NCBI GenBank assembly: GCA_937934745.1
Contig: CALGZC010000009.1
Location: 1-61,400, forward strand
From: an uncultured Blastocatellia bacterium
GTDB lineage: Bacteria; Acidobacteriota; Blastocatellia; Chloracidobacteriales; Chloracidobacteriaceae
Reading direction: 5' to 3'
DNA: 61,400 bases
A model generated the notes under the pieces. That model was given only the letters and a program-made list of their open reading frames with translations, was not told where the DNA came from and did no database searches. Shown here in pieces: positions 13,366 to 20,858 of this stretch (positions are counted from its first letter, which is position 1; every line of letters starts with the position of its first letter). The translations under genes were made by a program, and so were the position numbers.

Positions 13366-14280
13366 ATGGCCAACCAATACGCACCGCAGATTTATCCCGT
13401 ACCGCTGGCACCGTCGCGAGCCGACTTCTGGCGTGCCGTCCTCGAGCTGATGAAACCGCTCACGTGGTTTGCCCCGATGTGGGCGTTTTTGTGTGGGGCG
13501 GTGAGTAGCGGGGCTGCACCGACGGGCGACTTCCTCTGGAAGCTGTTTTTAGGGGCTCTGTTGGCCGGACCGCTCATGTGCTCGATGTCGCAGGTGATGA
13601 ACGATTACTGTGATCGGGAGGTGGACCGGCTCAACGAGCCCCAGCGGCCCTTCCCGTCGGGACGCATTACGGAGGCACAGGGCCTGTGGTTATGCACGTT
13701 CCTCACCGTGGCCTCGTTTGGCATGGCCTGGGTGGTCGGTGAGTGGCCGGTGCTGGCTATTACTGTCGCGGCGTTTGTGATGTCACTGCTGTACAGCGCG
13801 CCACCTGTGCGCGGCAAGCGCAATGGGTGGTTTGGCAACGGGCTGGTGAGCTTTGCGTATGAAGGTGTGGCTTGGGCGACGGGCTGCCTGGCGGTTTCCG
13901 GGGCGTTGCCACCGGCGAGCATTGCCGGGGCGGTGCTCTACAGCATCGGCGCACACGGTATTATGACGCTCAATGACTTCAAGAGTGTGCCTGGTGACAC
14001 AGCACTGGGCATCCGGTCGGTTCCGGTGCAGTTGGGCATCCCACGGGCCGCGCGCGTGGCGTGCTACGTGATGAACCTGCCACAACTGGCCTGCGTCGGT
14101 CTGCTGGCTTGGTACGGCACCTGGGTTTGGGCAGTCGTGCTCTTTGGGTTACTCATCGCTCAACTGCCATTGCAGGCCAAGTTGGTGCGTGACCCAGAAG
14201 CACGCGCACCGTGGTACAACGCAACCGGAACAACACTGTATGTGCTGGGGATGATGGCCTACGCCATTGCCATTCGCTGA
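13366..14280 (+). CDS. (bacterio)chlorophyll synthase, BchG/BchK type
   Basis: A UbiA-superfamily membrane prenyltransferase of 304 residues that esterifies (bacterio)chlorophyllide with an isoprenoid tail. The first Asp-rich motif is in NDYCDREVDRLNEPQRPFPS and the second in LNDFKSVPGD; both match the ChlG/BchG/BchK branch. At least seven hydrophobic segments can be seen. The location in the same run as csmA favours BchK (bacteriochlorophyll c, the chlorosome pigment), but sequence alone does not let me separate BchK from BchG, so I leave the symbol blank. The ATG at 13366 starts MANQYAP. The next gene follows after 55 bases, so it is probably the first gene of the chlorosome cassette. Confidence 0.88.
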   Translation: MANQYAPQIYPVPLAPSRADFWRAVLELMKPLTWFAPMWAFLCGAVSSGAAPTGDFLWKLFLGALLAGPLMCSMSQVMNDYCDREVDRLNEPQRPFPSGRITEAQGLWLCTFLTVASFGMAWVVGEWPVLAITVAAFVMSLLYSAPPVRGKRNGWFGNGLVSFAYEGVAWATGCLAVSGALPPASIAGAVLYSIGAHGIMTLNDFKSVPGDTALGIRSVPVQLGIPRAARVACYVMNLPQLACVGLLAWYGTWVWAVVLFGLLIAQLPLQAKLVRDPEARAPWYNATGTTLYVLGMMAYAIAIR

Positions 14281-14335
14281 CAACCCCCCGATAACTGCTT
14301 CAGATGGATTTGTCCGAGACGGAACGACGGAGCGT

Positions 14336-15523
14336 ATGAGAATCATCATCTACACCGGCAAGGGTGGGGTTGGAAAAACCAGTGTCGCCGCAGCGACGGC
14401 CCTGCTGGCCGCCGAGCGCGGTTTACGGACGTTGGTGATGAGCACCGACCCGGCCCACAGCCTTTCAGACTCGCTGGATGTACCGTTAGGGCCGGAGCCG
14501 GTGCGGGTCGCCGACCGGCTCGACGCCCTTGAAACCAACGTCTATCAAGACCTCGAGGAGAACTGGGGTCTTGTGCGGACGCACTTTGCTGAAATCCTTG
14601 CCAGCCAAGGCGTAGACGGTGTTCTGGCGGACGAATCCGCCATCCTGCCCGGCATGGAGGAGTTGTTCAGCCTGACACGAATTCGCAAGTACCGTGAAAG
14701 CGGCGAGTATGACTTGCTGGTGGTGGATGCCGCGCCGACCGGCGAGACGCTGCGGTTGCTCTCCATGCCCCAGACCCTCAACTGGCTGATCCGACTCGTG
14801 CGTGGGCTGGAGGCATCGCTGGTCCGGCCAATTGTCCGCCCCCTAGCTAATGCAACGCCGGGGCTGCGCAAGTACATGGCGTCGGAAAAGGTTTTCTCGG
14901 AAGTTGACCGCATGTTCCGCAACCTGGAGGTCATGCACGACATTCTGTGTGACGGCACGACAACTACCGTCCGCTTAGTCATGAATGCCGAGAAAATGGC
15001 CATCAAAGAGTCCAAGCGAGCGCTGACGTATCTCAACCTCTACGGGTTGTTGTCAGACGCAATTGTGGTCAACCGCCTACTCCCGGTGCATGAACACAGC
15101 GGCTTTTTGGAAGGCTGGAAGGCAGTGCAGCAGCGGTATCTGGCCGAAATTGAGGACTCATTTCAGCCGTTGCCAATTTTACGCGCCCCGATGTACGGTT
15201 CAGAAGTCGTCGGCATGGAACGACTCCGACTGCTGGCGCGCGACCTGTTCGGCGACAGCGACCCGGCGGCGCGGCTCTATGGTGAACGTCCCTTTGAGAT
15301 GTGTAAGTCCGACCACGACTGCCGCATTCGCATTCGGTTGCCGTTTTTAGAGCCGGACCGGCTCGAAACCTGGATTGCCGGTGATGAACTGGTCATTCAA
15401 ATCGGCAATCAACGGCGCATGGTTGGACTTCCGACCTCGATGATCGGTTTGGAGCCAACGCATGCCGAGTACCAGAACGAGTGGTTGAGTATTTGCTTTG
15501 AAACCCCGGTCGGCGTTGGCTGA
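14336..15523 (+). CDS. ArsA/Get3-like ATPase with C-terminal Hsp20-like domain
   Basis: A 395-residue P-loop ATPase of the ArsA/Get3 (deviant Walker A) group. The nucleotide site is GKGGVGKTS near residue 10, switch I is STDPAHSLSD near 40, and switch II is VVDAAPTGETLRLL near 130. The C-terminal 80 or so residues (PFLEPDRLETW to LSICFE) look like the alpha-crystallin-type domain of bacterial ArsA-like proteins. No arsenic genes are nearby. It sits between the chlorophyll synthase and csmA, so a role in targeting, folding or assembling chlorosome components is inferred. It has a single ATPase domain, so it would act as a dimer. The start is the ATG with GGAG a few bases upstream; an earlier in-frame codon overlaps the preceding gene and is unlikely. 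Confidence 0.85.
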   Translation: MRIIIYTGKGGVGKTSVAAATALLAAERGLRTLVMSTDPAHSLSDSLDVPLGPEPVRVADRLDALETNVYQDLEENWGLVRTHFAEILASQGVDGVLADESAILPGMEELFSLTRIRKYRESGEYDLLVVDAAPTGETLRLLSMPQTLNWLIRLVRGLEASLVRPIVRPLANATPGLRKYMASEKVFSEVDRMFRNLEVMHDILCDGTTTTVRLVMNAEKMAIKESKRALTYLNLYGLLSDAIVVNRLLPVHEHSGFLEGWKAVQQRYLAEIEDSFQPLPILRAPMYGSEVVGMERLRLLARDLFGDSDPAARLYGERPFEMCKSDHDCRIRIRLPFLEPDRLETWIAGDELVIQIGNQRRMVGLPTSMIGLEPTHAEYQNEWLSICFETPVGVG

Positions 15524-15582
15524 AGCGCCGCCCAGGATTGTCGCGCTACTCCCCGTACCGGTGGATAGAGGCCAAACAACCG

Positions 15583-15603
15583 GTGTGGGTATGCGCCCCA
15601 CAC
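15583..15603 (+). promoter_or_regulatory. hairpin in the arsA-csmA intergenic leader
   Basis: GTGTGGG (15583-15589) pairs with CCCACAC (15597-15603) across a 7-base loop. Flanking C/G bases extend the stem with one bulge. It lies 85 bases before the csmA start, in a 164-base gap. No U-run follows, so it is not a simple terminator. It may be an mRNA processing or stability element (inference). Confidence 0.4.
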
Positions 15604-15687
15604 GGTATGGCTGCCGACAGCATCTGCTTGCGTCCCCAAAGTTCAGCTCACTTTCCTTTCCATCCGAACTTCGGAGGACTTGTCACT

Positions 15688-15915
15688 ATGGGTCAGTTCA
15701 AAAAAGTCGTGGACTCGATCGTCGAAATCGGCGAGATCAACCTTGAGGGCCACATCAACCTCGTGGGCGACATTTACCGCGCCATTGCCTACAACTTCGA
15801 CCGTATTCAGGGACGCATGTTCGACAACCTGTATGACGGCGGCGGCGCACGGCGCAGCATGGGCGCGGTGCCGGCGGGGAAGACTACTGCTTCTCGTTTC
15901 ACGGCGGAAGGTTAG
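15688..15915 (+). CDS. csmA: chlorosome baseplate/envelope protein CsmA
   Basis: A 75-residue protein. An amphipathic N-terminal half contains GEINLEGHINLVG, which lines up with the EGHWETVG segment of green sulphur bacterial CsmA. His22 corresponds to the His that binds bacteriochlorophyll a in that family. The hydrophilic tail (RRSMGAVPAGKTTASRF) resembles the C-terminal part that is cleaved off in Chlorobium. The protein lines the chlorosome envelope and forms the pigment baseplate contacting the reaction-centre side. A strong GGAGGA lies nine bases before the ATG, suiting high expression. RNA hairpins lie on both sides of the gene. CsmA is the decisive marker that the host makes chlorosomes. 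Confidence 0.9.
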   Translation: MGQFKKVVDSIVEIGEINLEGHINLVGDIYRAIAYNFDRIQGRMFDNLYDGGGARRSMGAVPAGKTTASRFTAEG

Positions 15916-15923
15916 CGGTAGCC

Positions 15924-15976
15924 GGGAAGTTCGATGTCAGACGCCCGGCGTAAGCCGTGTGTCGGTCGAACTTCCC
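15924..15976 (+). promoter_or_regulatory. long structured RNA element just after csmA
   Basis: GGGAAGTTCGA (15924-15934) pairs perfectly with TCGAACTTCCC (15966-15976), an 11-base stem. The 31-base apical part contains a second hairpin, CGGC-GTAA-GCCG, which has a GNRA-type tetraloop. The element starts nine bases after the csmA stop. It is followed by C-rich sequence and no U-run, so read-through to the next gene is likely. Such 3' hairpins often protect upstream mRNA, which could raise CsmA relative to its neighbours (inference). Confidence 0.5.
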
Positions 15977-16029
15977 CCCTCAGTGGACACATTGACGCCT
16001 CCTGGCGGGCGGCTCGAGGAGAGACGGCG

Positions 16030-17301
16030 ATGGTCAACATCGTATGGGATTTGCCTGTCCCTTACATCGGCAAAAACGTCGAACGCAAGCACGTCGAGGA
16101 ATTCTTTCGATACCACCGTGAACCCGACGAGGTGGTGATTGCGCTCTTTGACGGCATTATTTTTGACGGTGACGGCAAGCGGGTCGGCGGACTCACGCTG
16201 CATGACTACGTTATTTTGACCGACCGGCATTTCATTCTCTGGGCGCGAGGTTTGCAGTCCGATGTACTCGACCGCCTGGATTATCGCGGCGTGTGCTTCA
16301 GCGCCAAGCAGGCCGACACCCTGCACGGAGAGTTGGCGCTTGAATTTACCCCGCCGGCAGTTCCTAAGCCGCTGACGGCACGGGTGGACTTGTTGCCGAT
16401 TATGGACCTGCCGGCACTCGAGGAATTGTTTACCCTGACAAAGGCGCTGGTCGTCGGCCGCTCCGACCAAGCTACCGGCCAAGCTACCGCCCAGGCGGGG
16501 CCGGCCCTGGATGCTCCCGCGACGGCAGGCGACCTGCCGCCCGGCGACGTGATGGCCAACGTCGAACGGATTCGGGCGATTGTGCAGGAGTCGCTGGTCA
16601 AACGCGGCATCACCTTCAGAGCGCCCGCGCCGGCCCCGCCGGCGCGCAACGGGAGTGGTGTGCGCGAGCCGATCATCCGTGAGACATCGCCAGAATCCCC
16701 ATTTGGGACAGGGCGGCCGGTCTCCAACGCGAGCTATGCCGTTTATCGCGTCGCACAGGCGGCTAAGGATGCCGTTGGAAGCCTACCGACAGACATCGGC
16801 AAGACCATCGGCCTGGACGAAACCCTCTCCAAGCTGGTTGACCGCATCCCCAAAATCGAGGACCTTGGTCAGATTACCGCCCTGATTGAGGCGCTCAACA
16901 AGCTCCTTGTCACGGTCAGTGAAAACCCGGCCGCGCGGGCGTTTCTGCTCCAGGCGATTGATCGCATGGTGGAACAGGGGAGTCCGCTCAGACAGCTTCT
17001 GGCCTTTATTCAGAACGCCGGGAAGCCGACGGCGAAGCCGGCCGATCAACCGACACCGCCCACCCCTGAAGCGCCGCGCACCGCTGCCGGCTCAAACGGC
17101 GCCGCCACAACCGGCGCGGTTCCACGCCGGACGGCCGTCAAAGTCAGTTTTGCCCAGGAAGGTGTCCCACCGGCGCACAAAGCCAGCACACCGAAGCCGT
17201 CGCTGTCCATCGCATACGGGCAGCCAAAGCCGGCGGCAACGGCACCAGAAGCAGCCCCAGAGCCCGCCAATGCCCCAGAACTGGCCAACGCATCGTCTTA
17301 G
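16030..17301 (+). CDS. PH-like domain protein of the chlorosome cassette, function unknown
   Basis: A 423-residue soluble protein. Residues 1 to about 120 (DEVVIALFDG, YVILTDRHFILWARG, LDYRGVCFSA) look like a bacterial PH-type beta domain. A flexible linker follows near residue 150, then a helical segment near 200 (NVERIRAIVQESLVKRGI), another helical stretch (residues 235-330), and a Pro/Ala/Lys-rich tail. There is no signal peptide or membrane helix. GAGGAGAG precedes the ATG. The gene lies 114 bases after csmA and before a shared terminator, so it is co-transcribed. It is a candidate chlorosome envelope or attachment protein. Chloracidobacterium chlorosomes are reported to hold several envelope proteins of their own, but I cannot assign this one to any of them. 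Confidence 0.75.
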   Translation: MVNIVWDLPVPYIGKNVERKHVEEFFRYHREPDEVVIALFDGIIFDGDGKRVGGLTLHDYVILTDRHFILWARGLQSDVLDRLDYRGVCFSAKQADTLHGELALEFTPPAVPKPLTARVDLLPIMDLPALEELFTLTKALVVGRSDQATGQATAQAGPALDAPATAGDLPPGDVMANVERIRAIVQESLVKRGITFRAPAPAPPARNGSGVREPIIRETSPESPFGTGRPVSNASYAVYRVAQAAKDAVGSLPTDIGKTIGLDETLSKLVDRIPKIEDLGQITALIEALNKLLVTVSENPAARAFLLQAIDRMVEQGSPLRQLLAFIQNAGKPTAKPADQPTPPTPEAPRTAAGSNGAATTGAVPRRTAVKVSFAQEGVPPAHKASTPKPSLSIAYGQPKPAATAPEAAPEPANAPELANASS

Positions 17302-17328
17302 GCAGCTTTAGCCTGTGAATACCACAGG

Positions 17329-17375
17329 CTTGCAGAAAACTTGCAGCAGAAAACTTGTAGAAAACTTACAGAAAA
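17329..17375 (+). repeat. four imperfect tandem copies of CTTGCAGAAAA
   Basis: CTTGCAGAAAA (17329-17339), CTTGCAGCAGAAAA (17340-17353), CTTGTAGAAAA (17354-17364) and CTTACAGAAAA (17365-17375) run head to tail. They sit between the last gene of the chlorosome cassette and its terminator. They are A-rich on the sense strand, so they would leave an unstructured stretch before the terminator hairpin. Confidence 0.75.
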
Positions 17376-17415
17376 CGGGTGGCTTCGCAGAGTGCGGATG
17401 CCACCCGTCATTTTT
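17375..17415 (+). terminator. intrinsic terminator of the chlorosome cassette
   Basis: ACGGGTGGC (17375-17383) pairs perfectly with GCCACCCGT (17400-17408). An inner stem (TTCGCA with TGCGGA) continues inside, and CATTTTT follows. It lies 74 bases after the stop of the PH-like gene and is a textbook Rho-independent terminator. Confidence 0.85.
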
Positions 17416-17527
17416 GCTTGGTGATTGTTGAAGCAGACCTTTAGATTTTCAAATCACGTCGTGACCGCCAGGCGCGTTCGCGTCGGTCTTGCCCCCAAGC
17501 CATCTCGCAGGGCGAGGATGTTCGGTA

Positions 17528-18775
17528 ATGGCAAGTCAAGTTGCGGTCACACCGCCTGAAAATGCTCCTGCGCGGGCGCGCCTGCCCGTTCAAGCGCGGA
17601 CGCGCGCGATGGTGGCGCGCGATTTTGGCAGTCCTATCATTGAGGCTTTGCGCCGGCAGGGTTATCGGTACCGCGTTGGACGGCTCACGTTTCGCTTGGC
17701 ACGTGAGTTCGGTTTTTGCTACGGCGTAGACGATGCTCTGGAACTGGCCTATGAAGCACGTCTTCGGTTTCAGGACCGAGTCATTTATCTGACCGGTGAG
17801 ATCATTCACAACCCGGTGGTCAACCAGCGACTGGCAGCGCTGGACATTCTTCCGTTGGAAGATCAGTCGCAGGTGATGCCGCAGGATGTGGTGATCGTGC
17901 CGGCGTTTGGTTTACCGGTGCCGGAGTTGGCCCGACTGCGCGCCATCGGCTGTACAGTGATTGACACAACCTGTGGTTCGGTCGTCCATGTTTGGAAGCG
18001 TGTAGAACGCTACGCCCGTGACGGGTTCACCACCGTTATTCACGGGAAGTATGACCACGAAGAAACGATGGCGACCTGTTCGCAGGTCCTGGCCGTTCCA
18101 GGTGGACGCTACGTCGTCGTGCGGGACCTCACAGAGGCCGCCCAGGTGGCGGAAGTCATCACCGGCACCCGTCCGGCGGCAGACTTGGACGCCTTCTTTG
18201 CCCGGGCGGCGTCACCAGGCTTCGATGCGACGCGGGACCTTGAAAAAATCGGTCTCGCCAATCAAACGACAATGCTGGCGAATGAGTCCCTAGCGATTGC
18301 AGCACACCTGCGCGCGGCCATCACTGTGCGATACGGCGAAGACGAAGCGCCCTTTCGTTTTCGGTCATTTGACACCATCTGCAGCGCCACCCAAGTCCGG
18401 CAGGATGCGATTGCCGAGTTACTGGACAATCCACCTGATCTGATGGTGGTGGTCGGTGGGTACAACAGCAGCAACACCGGTCATTTGTGCGAGTTGGCTT
18501 CGGCCGTGTGTCCGACCTACCACATTGCAGGGCCGGAATGCATTGTCTCAGCTGAGGTCATTCGCCACAAACCGGCTTGGCAGGCCAGGGAAATTGAATC
18601 ACACGACTGGCTTCCTCACGGGACGCTAACCATCGGGTTGACCTCCGGCGCGTCCACGCCTGATCGCTCACTCGGTGAAGTTGTCCTGCGGCTGATTGCC
18701 GTTGCCTGCGAAGCCGTGCCTTCCGACTGGGTGTTCGAGCGGCACCCAGTCGGATTGGCCGGGACGGCGGCTTAG
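17528..18775 (+). CDS. ispH: 4-hydroxy-3-methylbut-2-enyl diphosphate reductase IspH
   Basis: The last enzyme of the MEP isoprenoid pathway, a [4Fe-4S] protein making IPP and DMAPP. Three cluster Cys are visible: GFCYGVD near residue 65, DTTCGS near 150, and the Cys of TICSATQVRQDA near 290. The acid-base motif is HGKYDHEE and not the HPEV seen in E. coli. The length is 415 residues. Both traits match the longer plant/cyanobacterial type. A strong GAGGA lies about nine bases before the ATG. It follows the chlorosome cassette terminator, and isoprenoids supply the pigment tails esterified by the synthase upstream. The 3' end overlaps the convergent oxidoreductase gene by four bases. Confidence 0.92.
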   Translation: MASQVAVTPPENAPARARLPVQARTRAMVARDFGSPIIEALRRQGYRYRVGRLTFRLAREFGFCYGVDDALELAYEARLRFQDRVIYLTGEIIHNPVVNQRLAALDILPLEDQSQVMPQDVVIVPAFGLPVPELARLRAIGCTVIDTTCGSVVHVWKRVERYARDGFTTVIHGKYDHEETMATCSQVLAVPGGRYVVVRDLTEAAQVAEVITGTRPAADLDAFFARAASPGFDATRDLEKIGLANQTTMLANESLAIAAHLRAAITVRYGEDEAPFRFRSFDTICSATQVRQDAIAELLDNPPDLMVVVGGYNSSNTGHLCELASAVCPTYHIAGPECIVSAEVIRHKPAWQAREIESHDWLPHGTLTIGLTSGASTPDRSLGEVVLRLIAVACEAVPSDWVFERHPVGLAGTAA

Positions 18776-20835
18776 GTGTGTCGGGTGCCGTCTGTTGCCT
18801 GATCAAGCAACTCGGCAATGTCAAGCACCTTTACACGTTCTTCATTGTGTGTCTTGAGACCGTCGGTCAGCATCGTCATGCAAAACGGGCACGCGGCAGC
18901 AACAATGTCCGGCTTGGTTTGAAGCGCCTGCCGCGCCCGCTCAACATTGACCCGCTCGCCGGATTCCTCCATCCACATGCGCGCACCACCGGCACCGCAG
19001 CACATCCCTCTGTCGCGGGAACGCTCCATTTCCGTGAGCTTAGCGCCAATTTGCACCAACACTTGCCGCGGCTCCTCGTACACATTGTTGGAGCGCCCTA
19101 AGTAACACGAATCGTGATAGACGGCCGTTGCGGTAATTTTCTGTGTCGGCGTAATCCGGCCTTCAGCAACCAGCTTTGACAGATACTGGCTGTGGTGCAT
19201 GACCTCGAACGTCCCGCCGAACTGTGACCACTCATTCTTGATGGCGTTGAAGCAATGCGGACACGAGGTGAGGACGGTCTTGAAGCGGGACTTGTAGTTG
19301 TTGAGCGTCTCAACGTTCTCCTGAATGAGCATCTGTGCCAAATACTCGTTACCGGCCCGCCGCGCTGGGTCGCCGGTACATTTCTCCTGCTTGCCCAAGA
19401 TTGCAAATGAAATACCGGCTTTCTTGAGCAGGCGTGCCACAGCCTGCACCACCTTGCGATAACGGTCGTCGTATGAGCCGGCGCAGCCGACCCAAAAGAG
19501 AACTTCTACATGCTTCTGCTCGGCTTCAATCATGGACATCAACGGAATATCCAGCCCTTCGGCCCAATCGGCCCGCCCGTCGTGACTGAATGCCCAGGGT
19601 GAGTACTTGTTTTCAAGGTTCGTAAACAGGGTATTTAACTCACTTGGGAACTCCGCTTCCTGCAACACGAGGTAGCGCCGCATATCCACAATCGTCGGCA
19701 CATGCTCAATGCTGACCGGACACTCCTGCATACACGCCTGACAGGTTGTACAGGCCCAGAGTTCTTCCGGTGTGATGAAGCCCTCCCCAACGATCTTCCG
19801 CGCCAACACTGCCTGGACGTTGTCCGGGAGTTCGCCGTGGCCGTTGCCGTTCGTCGCGATGCCTTTTGTCAAGGTTCCCAGCTTACCAACCGTCAGTTCG
19901 CCCTTTTCCTCAATGCGGCGACGCAGGTCCATCATAATTTTGCGCGGTGACAGGGGCTTGCCGGTGTTGTTGGCGGGGCACACCGCCGTACAGCGCCCAC
20001 ACTCGGTACACGTGTAACTGTCAAACAACTGCTTCCACGTGAAATGCTCGACATCTGAGGCGCCGAATGTCTCCACGTCCTCGGCCTCAAGGTCCATTTT
20101 GGGCAGGACGCCGGAGGACTGGTGGGACGCCAAAAATACGTTCGGCAGCGAGGCAATCACGTGTAGGTGCTTCGAGAACGGCAGGTAGTTGAGAAAGGCA
20201 AACAACACGACCGCGTGCGTCCACCAGGCCGCTTCGAAGAGCAGTTCGTTCTGATTGCCCCCAAGGTAAAAACCAACGACATCCGAGATAGGGCGGTAAC
20301 CGAAATAAACGCTGTTGGTCGCCGGATGCGTCCCATTGGCGACAAACATCGTCACCATCAGCGCAATGATCATGACCAGAATCACGGTGGCGTCTAGCCG
20401 GCTGGCCGGCTTCATCTCCGCCCCAGAGAACCGTTTCGGCTTGGTCACATAGCGGCGGAACAGAAACGCGAGGGAGGCCGTCAGCACCAGGACACCGAAG
20501 ATGTCCTGGAGCAATGTCAACGCCCCGTAGCCCGGCAGGAAGTACAGTGAAGCACGGGGATGGAAGCCTTCCAGCACCACTTCCAGGGAGGCAAGGGTTA
20601 GAATGCAAAACCCCCAGAACACGGTGACGTGGAGCGCACCGGCCCACCACTGCCGCATGATCTTTTTCTGGGCAAATCCAATAACGAGTAAGTCCCAAAA
20701 GCGACGTGGCAAGTTATCCAAGCGGTTGTCTGGCTTACCGACGCGGATGTACGCGATCAGCCGCCAGGCGTTGAACAAGAAGTAGCCGGTAGAGGCTACA
20801 AACAACACGATGAAGATGAGGTTTTTGACAGTCAT
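18772..20835 (-). CDS. membrane iron-sulphur oxidoreductase, FadF/EtfD-like
   Basis: A 687-residue protein. The N-terminal 240 or so residues hold five or six membrane helices of NarI-like type. A ferredoxin-like module follows with CTECGRCTAVCP and CTTCQACMQECP. Two CCG domains come next (VGCAGSYDDR, SCPHCFNAIKNEW, then DSCYLGRSN, GMCCGAGGARMW, ACPFCMTML). This layout matches B. subtilis FadF (YwjF) and mycobacterial EtfD, which are thought to pass electrons from acyl-CoA dehydrogenases via ETF to menaquinone. Heterodisulphide-reductase-like subunits are the main alternative. No etfAB is in the window. The palindrome 26 bases before its ATG matches the FadR operator pattern and supports a fatty-acid oxidation role. 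Confidence 0.83.
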   Translation of the reverse strand: MTVKNLIFIVLFVASTGYFLFNAWRLIAYIRVGKPDNRLDNLPRRFWDLLVIGFAQKKIMRQWWAGALHVTVFWGFCILTLASLEVVLEGFHPRASLYFLPGYGALTLLQDIFGVLVLTASLAFLFRRYVTKPKRFSGAEMKPASRLDATVILVMIIALMVTMFVANGTHPATNSVYFGYRPISDVVGFYLGGNQNELLFEAAWWTHAVVLFAFLNYLPFSKHLHVIASLPNVFLASHQSSGVLPKMDLEAEDVETFGASDVEHFTWKQLFDSYTCTECGRCTAVCPANNTGKPLSPRKIMMDLRRRIEEKGELTVGKLGTLTKGIATNGNGHGELPDNVQAVLARKIVGEGFITPEELWACTTCQACMQECPVSIEHVPTIVDMRRYLVLQEAEFPSELNTLFTNLENKYSPWAFSHDGRADWAEGLDIPLMSMIEAEQKHVEVLFWVGCAGSYDDRYRKVVQAVARLLKKAGISFAILGKQEKCTGDPARRAGNEYLAQMLIQENVETLNNYKSRFKTVLTSCPHCFNAIKNEWSQFGGTFEVMHHSQYLSKLVAEGRITPTQKITATAVYHDSCYLGRSNNVYEEPRQVLVQIGAKLTEMERSRDRGMCCGAGGARMWMEESGERVNVERARQALQTKPDIVAAACPFCMTMLTDGLKTHNEERVKVLDIAELLDQATDGTRHT

Positions 20836-20858
20836 GGCGTCAACACGCAACCCTCGAT

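Follow-up and report, generated by a model that had tools for sequence, protein, structure and literature searches.

The csmA locus of Chloracidobacterium: a Get3d-type ATPase gene and a PH-like gene family shared with the csmA locus of presumed green sulfur bacteria

Genes of the cassette

The locus described here lies in the window, by which we mean the whole analysed stretch of 61,400 nucleotides (nt), a contig (CALGZC010000009.1) of the 73-contig genome of an uncultured acidobacterium of the family Chloracidobacteriaceae, probably of the genus Chloracidobacterium. It is a cassette, and a candidate operon, of four rightward genes encoding a (bacterio)chlorophyll synthase of the BchG type, a Get3d-type ATPase, the chlorosome baseplate protein CsmA and a PH-like protein. 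The genes are separated by gaps of 55, 164 and 114 nt, a terminator-like hairpin follows the last of them, and the gene upstream of the synthase has the opposite orientation. New here is that the get3-csmA-PH-like core of this cassette is also the csmA locus of presumed green sulfur bacteria (below, the second group). The literature search, outside which most subscription papers lay, found no paper linking a Get3/ArsA gene or the PH-like gene with csmA.

The product of the first gene (13366–14280, plus strand; 304 amino acids, aa) exceeds the cut-offs of the UbiA and (bacterio)chlorophyll synthase models. Seven UbiA-family matches were found in its own genome, and the three that were scanned all pass TIGR01476 ((bacterio)chlorophyll synthase), two further synthases being encoded there besides the cassette enzyme. 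In the synthase tree the latter shares a branch (95/95) with one of the second-group types and with two purple-bacterial synthases, which carry the NCBI label chlG; the other two second-group types fall outside this branch. Purple bacteria make bacteriochlorophyll a (BChl a). When compared with a solved chlorophyll a synthase, the cassette enzyme scored 176 bits and an orthologue of its paralog 202 bits. On the strength of the models, the branch shared with purple-bacterial synthases and the lower chlorophyll a synthase score, the enzyme is read as a BChl a synthase (BchG), a specificity that is predicted.

The ATPase (14336–15523, plus strand; 395 aa) matches ArsA_ATPase and ArsA_HSP20. It has the P-loop GKGGVGKT, the switch I Asp and an HSP20-like tail at residues 329–388 (PF17886, 60.4 bits; cut-off 22.5), and no CXXC zinc motif was found at positions 151–330 in the 75 trimmed Get3 rows, the window's included. 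According to the accessible part of the Get3d paper, Get3d lacks CXXC and has an alpha-crystallin-like C-terminal domain, while the P-loop lysine and the switch I Asp are retained in green-bacterial Get3d (PMC10248533). With the two arsenite-pump models the protein scored 91.4 bits vs a cut-off of 650 and 118.6 vs 800, so far below that an identity as an ArsA arsenite pump was rejected. The model of the Nostoc-type protein NosAFP (NF050088) gave 145.6 bits, below its cut-off of 325, and the cassette ATPase is therefore classed from its sequence as Get3d-type and not as NosAFP.

CsmA (15688–15915, plus strand; 75 aa) is matched by Bac_chlorC (PF02043, 29.9 bits; cut-off 25). Its Gly-His pair of the BChl a site, G21-H22, is invariant in all eight aligned rows; in CsmA of C. 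tepidum the BChl a ligand is H25, as given in the available part of PMC4992139.

The fourth gene (16030–17301, plus strand; 423 aa) encodes a member of a family that has no Pfam entry. In the alignment the protein consists of a beta domain (residues ~1–150), a helical middle (~230–330) and a variable low-complexity tail. The N-terminal domain is the conserved part of the family, the second-group members have repeated RRKK-type motifs, and a simple hydropathy scan of the protein revealed no transmembrane stretch. Pfam gave no family at E 1 for the window's protein and chance-level matches only for 13 members (best E 0.27), the best NCBIfam match was likewise at chance level (E 0.097; 11.6 bits vs a cut-off of 630), and a profile search of PDB with the family produced no match at E <0.2. 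The AlphaFold models, built from four sequences, were poor, with a mean predicted local distance difference test (pLDDT) score of 39.8 for the whole protein and 44.3 for residues 1–150. The best Foldseek match to the low-confidence N-terminal model was a PH domain (E 9e-3, probability 0.97, template modelling score 0.32); none of the 490 matches reached E 0.001, and the best 50 of them were, judging by their titles, nearly all PH-superfold or FERM proteins. A comparison by hhalign with four of the five bacterial PH proteins found was weak (E 0.022, probability 2%), the score being 18.8 vs 9.3–13.9 in ten column shuffles. The PH label of this protein is likely but unproven, and the predicted fold rests on weak models.

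The terminator-like hairpin and the T run behind it occupy positions 17375–17413 (plus strand). The arms (17375–17386 and 17397–17408) are 92% complementary, CATTTTT lies downstream, and the folding energy of 17300–17430 is −49.1 kcal/mol vs −34.8 (standard deviation 3.6) across 200 shuffles (z −3.9). A simple terminator scanner, which considers loops of 3–8 only, did not have the hairpin (17375–17408) among its sites; it found five terminator-like sites vs 4.6 in shuffles, and promoter-like sites numbered three vs 0.9, the promoter scan being close to chance. An earlier note, made from the letters of this DNA, had described four rightward genes with a single clear terminator, and the open reading frames (ORFs), gaps and folding energy agree with this description. 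Its naming of CsmA and the chlorophyll synthase as recognised families is confirmed by Pfam and NCBIfam scores above cut-off, and for the ATPase, which it had called Get3/ArsA-type, the HSP20-like tail and the missing CXXC settle on Get3 rather than the arsenite pump. Its PH label has the weak backing of the structural model, for which a PH domain was the best Foldseek match, and finds none in sequence matches to PH families.

Conservation of the locus in two groups

Among the 14 genomes of the order, csmA is present in eight, the window's included, and all eight have the four-gene order. One of them (G007) belongs to another genus of the same family. Across the remaining six genomes of the window's genus, identity to the window is 93–97% for Get3d, 95–100% for CsmA, 88–92% for BchG and 67–73% for the PH-like protein. 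Five flanking genes, read as Mpl-, DacB-, IspH-, FeS-protein- and LptF/G-like, are kept in all six (identity over the longest segment 72–88%, 73–83%, 73–82%, 88–93% and 74–82%, respectively), and a MutS-like flanking gene was matched in three of the six stretches. Get3d, at 93–97%, is thus more conserved than the two genes adjoining the cassette (73–83%); a gene farther away (18772–20850) stands at 88–93%. G007 has kept the cassette, while its 11.8-kb contig (L030, the same as L041) gave no match to any of the six flanking queries; as read from the ORFs, a serpin-like and a VWA-type gene are found there.

The G007 contig also occurs as L041, a metagenome-assembled genome titled Actinomycetota that has the full cassette; its matches are identical to those of G007 of the window's family, and the title looks wrong. 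A small opposite-strand ORF (L041, 7921–8262) with a double CxxC zinc-ribbon-like end lies there between csmA and the PH-like gene and has no Pfam match. In the window, positions 17440–17501, between the terminator and the IspH-like gene, are near-invariant in all seven aligned Chloracidobacterium sequences and read TTAGATT ... ACGTCGTGACCGC ... GCGTCGGTCTTGCCCCCAAGCC. No Rfam family scored above its gathering score in this block, which is possibly a promoter or leader of the IspH-like gene.

The second group was sampled as 395 genomes from the phylum of a Kryptonium record. PF02043 matches 96 of them, and we infer from csmA, csmC and general taxonomy that the csmA-bearing ones are green sulfur bacteria (Chlorobia). 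When the profile of the PH-like family (A2) was run on the same 395 genomes, it matched 89 of the 96 with a PF02043 match and none of the 299 without. In Acidobacteriota, the matches of the profile (4 of 396 genomes) are all to Chloracidobacterium (genus g1, that of the window). One PH-like stretch was fetched from each of the 89 second-group genomes, and in 83 of these loci get3, csmC, csmA and the PH-like gene lie in this order on one strand. The remaining six (L197, L209, L216, L338, L353 and L366) end at a contig edge. A second get3 follows the PH-like gene in 80 of the 83 (79 plain ones and L188, where the PH-like match is split), and the three loci without it (L183, L187 and L190) also end at a contig edge. 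The identity of CsmC was checked in one locus (PF11098, 232.6 bits).

Both groups have the same arrangement of get3, csmA and the PH-like gene, which lie near one another in one order and orientation. The cassette get3 is 50–51% identical to the get3 upstream of csmC-csmA, and between the groups identity is 51% for Get3, 24–28% for CsmA and 23–26% for the PH-like protein. The second-group genomes are interrelated and their counts are not independent events, so the weight of the evidence lies in the same core being found in two groups at such low identity. Together with the four-gene order in eight of eight genomes, the core in the second group places the cassette far beyond a chance arrangement. 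The synthase is a cassette member in the Chloracidobacterium group only: it had no match in the 89 second-group stretches (most of 10–15 kb, some shorter), and it was rejected as a part of the shared core. The same order in other chlorosome-bearing genomes, which the earlier note had proposed as a check, is in this way recovered in the second group for the three-gene core and not for the synthase.

Seven PF02043-positive genomes lack a PH-like match (G072, G083, G205, G323, G339, G358 and G390). In six of them (all except G205) one PF02043 place each was read; these score 40–61 on the CsmA profile, which resembles the non-cassette copies (43–57) and is also near the cassette copies of more distant genomes (55–75). 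No csmC or PH-like gene lies beside these six places; G083 and G390 have further PF02043 copies, and the PH-like gene may have been lost.

Several second-group stretches have further genes near a second CsmA-family gene. In L162, L167 and L374 a chlorophyll-synthase-like gene lies ~1.5 kb from it, and in L155, L157, L159, L165, L169 and L173 an extra divergent Get3 is encoded 3–4 kb from it on the opposite strand.

Get3 paralogs and relatives

The window's own genome has three full-length ArsA_ATPase matches, and six second-group genomes have five or six each (>130 bits). In all eight genomes of the Chloracidobacterium group a get3 paralog lies directly 3' of fmoA; in the own genome this is seen on contig 40 (L031, 4628–10717), where a pscA-like gene, a small ORF, fmoA and the get3 paralog follow one another. 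Two of the three Chloracidobacterium Get3 paralogs thereby adjoin csmA or fmoA. For the Get3 tree identical rows and rows shorter than 330 aa were dropped, which gave 75 rows, and 16 fast rows (CABg, GSBb and L082) were left out of the final tree of 59. The fmoA-linked Get3 branches with one second-group paralog (100/100), beside which no fmoA or pscA match was found in the five larger stretches read.

A pattern search of named genomes, built from the window protein and not a census, kept 80 of 102 Get3 relatives, of which three belong to the Chloracidobacterium group and 77 to genomes presumed by title to be non-phototrophs. The tail of such relatives was confirmed by PF17886 in three genomes. 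Whole-length matches, with the tail region included, were seen in L043–L118 (Paenibacillus, Lachnospiraceae, Methanomassiliicoccales and others), most of them covering query residues 1 to ~388. Exclusivity of this Get3 to phototrophs was accordingly rejected, given the relatives in non-phototrophic acidobacteria, Paenibacillus and others, and the whole-length matches in non-phototrophs speak against Get3d as a photosynthesis protein. In short, the Get3 type is not confined to phototrophs, and the PH-like family tracks CsmA as far as sampled.

Interpretation and comparison with known systems

The best explanation of the whole, to which we give a probability of roughly 0.5, is that Chloracidobacterium and green sulfur bacteria have a chlorosome baseplate module in common, of which this locus is the Chloracidobacterium version. 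Judged by its sequences, the system would be of the Get3d type and would have a new partner family linked to the chlorosome. A function tied to the biogenesis of the chlorosome or its baseplate is very probable. That Get3d handles CsmA is a tentative proposal, somewhat short of even odds, and the PH-like protein as the docking partner of Get3d is a doubtful one. In such a module Get3d would bind new small hydrophobic or amphipathic envelope proteins in its hydrophobic chamber, CsmA first and CsmC where present, keep them from aggregating and release them ATP-dependently where the chlorosome grows. The PH-like protein could be the partner at the growth site; its N-terminal domain would then bind to membrane, envelope or Get3, and the long tail would act as a tether or spacer. 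Chloracidobacterium adds BchG, so that synthesis of the CsmA ligand could take place next to CsmA itself. The idea of the earlier note that both accessory proteins serve chlorosome building gains strong support from the presence of both genes beside csmA in the second group and from the PH-like family, which in the two samples occurred only where CsmA-family genes do; the mechanism stays conjectural. Its further suggestion, insertion of CsmA or pigment into the envelope, is unsupported as written and remains conjecture; CsmA has no transmembrane anchor.

Several observations weigh against the shared baseplate module. No transmembrane stretch was detected in CsmA by a simple hydropathy scan; classical tail-anchor targeting is thus not applicable, and the role would be that of a chaperone or of delivery, not tail-anchor insertion. 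The csm genes of Chlorobium are reported, in the accessible part of PMC12214013, to give mono- and dicistronic mRNAs. In G007 csmA and the PH-like gene are ~640 nt apart (660 between aligned ends), with a possible ORF on the opposite strand between them. Get3 with the same C-terminal domain is encoded in four of the six csmA-lacking genomes of the order, which are non-phototrophs, and this Get3 type is found at up to 46% identity in Paenibacillus and others. In the tree, the nearest relatives of the csmA-linked Get3 of Chloracidobacterium are those of the four csmA-lacking order genomes (98/94); the alternative grouping with the csmA-linked second-group Get3 is not rejected (p-AU 0.116). Transfer of the get3-csmA-PH-like block between the groups found no support, as the tree joins the Chloracidobacterium protein with non-phototrophic acidobacteria. 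Gene transfer of the cassette could also keep the order without functional ties.

Other explanations have to be weighed with these points. The PH-like protein might be a structural envelope protein of the chlorosome, perhaps CsmR, CsmS, CsmT or CsmU, with Get3d engaged merely in general membrane-protein traffic. This we consider rather unlikely, even if the C. thermophilum envelope proteins named in the part of PMC9316378 available are CsmV, CsmR, CsmS, CsmT and CsmU, and a long low-complexity tail with no transmembrane stretch would suit such a protein. The same source describes CsmA as the sole chlorosome protein similar across three phyla, yet the PH-like family is common to two groups; this objection is not decisive, as a family can exist without being detected in isolated chlorosomes. 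A little less probable still is that Get3d is a general cell chaperone, placed beside csmA by co-transfer or for convenience of expression. Its presence in non-phototrophic relatives and their union with the Chloracidobacterium copy in the tree favour this, but the csmA-lacking genomes of the same family (G008 and G009) have short, weak Get3 matches only and thus no Get3d, two of the three paralogs adjoin csmA or fmoA, and the neighbourhood survives the large divergence of its proteins and changed flanks.

An arsenite resistance (ArsA) gene that is an unconnected neighbour of csmA is suggested by the Pfam name ArsA_ATPase and by a review in which arsenite export is given as the function of a green sulfur bacterium's six ArsA homologs (PMC11269200), a point that again weighs against the module. 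Scores far under the arsenite-pump cut-offs, the HSP20-like tail and a position next to csmA that is constant in two groups make it extremely improbable. A bolder version of the baseplate module, which we regard as unlikely, is a dedicated ancient antenna-assembly system in the two groups, in which Get3d beside csmA and, in Chloracidobacterium, fmoA would deliver proteins or pigment and the PH-like protein would dock. If true, this would give chlorosome assembly its first known machinery, and bacteria their first Get3d pathway for which both a client and a partner are known.

For chlorosome assembly there are budding and aggregation models, as set out in the available part of PMC9316378. The kept neighbourhood names candidates both for this process and for the role of Get3d: CsmA and CsmC would be the clients and the PH-like protein the partner. 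With the PH-like family, two of the three chlorosome groups are seen to share a second, csmA-linked protein family; CsmA had been the only one noted before. Since C. tepidum is naturally transformable, according to the accessible part of PMC12214013, the candidate roles are directly testable.

The nearest known systems resemble the locus in part. Get3d of Arabidopsis and Nostoc is likewise a Get3-fold ATPase with a C-terminal alpha-crystallin-like domain and without CXXC, and the plant and cyanobacterial proteins hydrolyse ATP, bind tail-anchored clients and have a hydrophobic chamber (PMC10248533). In its accessible text that paper names no bacterial physiological client or partner, and the word chlorosome is absent from it, whereas here the gene neighbours are candidates. 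The GET pathway, in which Get3 works with a membrane receptor and co-factors, is paralleled here by an ATPase carrier and a possible membrane-side partner; it differs in that CsmA is not tail-anchored and that neither Pfam nor PDB offers a match at E <0.2 to the PH-like protein. Bacterial PH domains (e.g., bPH_3) agree with the weak model of the PH-like protein in strand order and final helix, and with the PH-superfold titles of its Foldseek matches; they differ from it in that the profile match reaches only E 0.022 (probability 2%) and model confidence is low. In the csmC-csmA locus of Chlorobium and Chlorobaculum, csmA with csmC (PF11098) is the known centre, as it is in the second-group loci described here; the flanking get3 and PH-like gene and the Chloracidobacterium counterpart, which were not found described in the literature searched, set the present locus apart.

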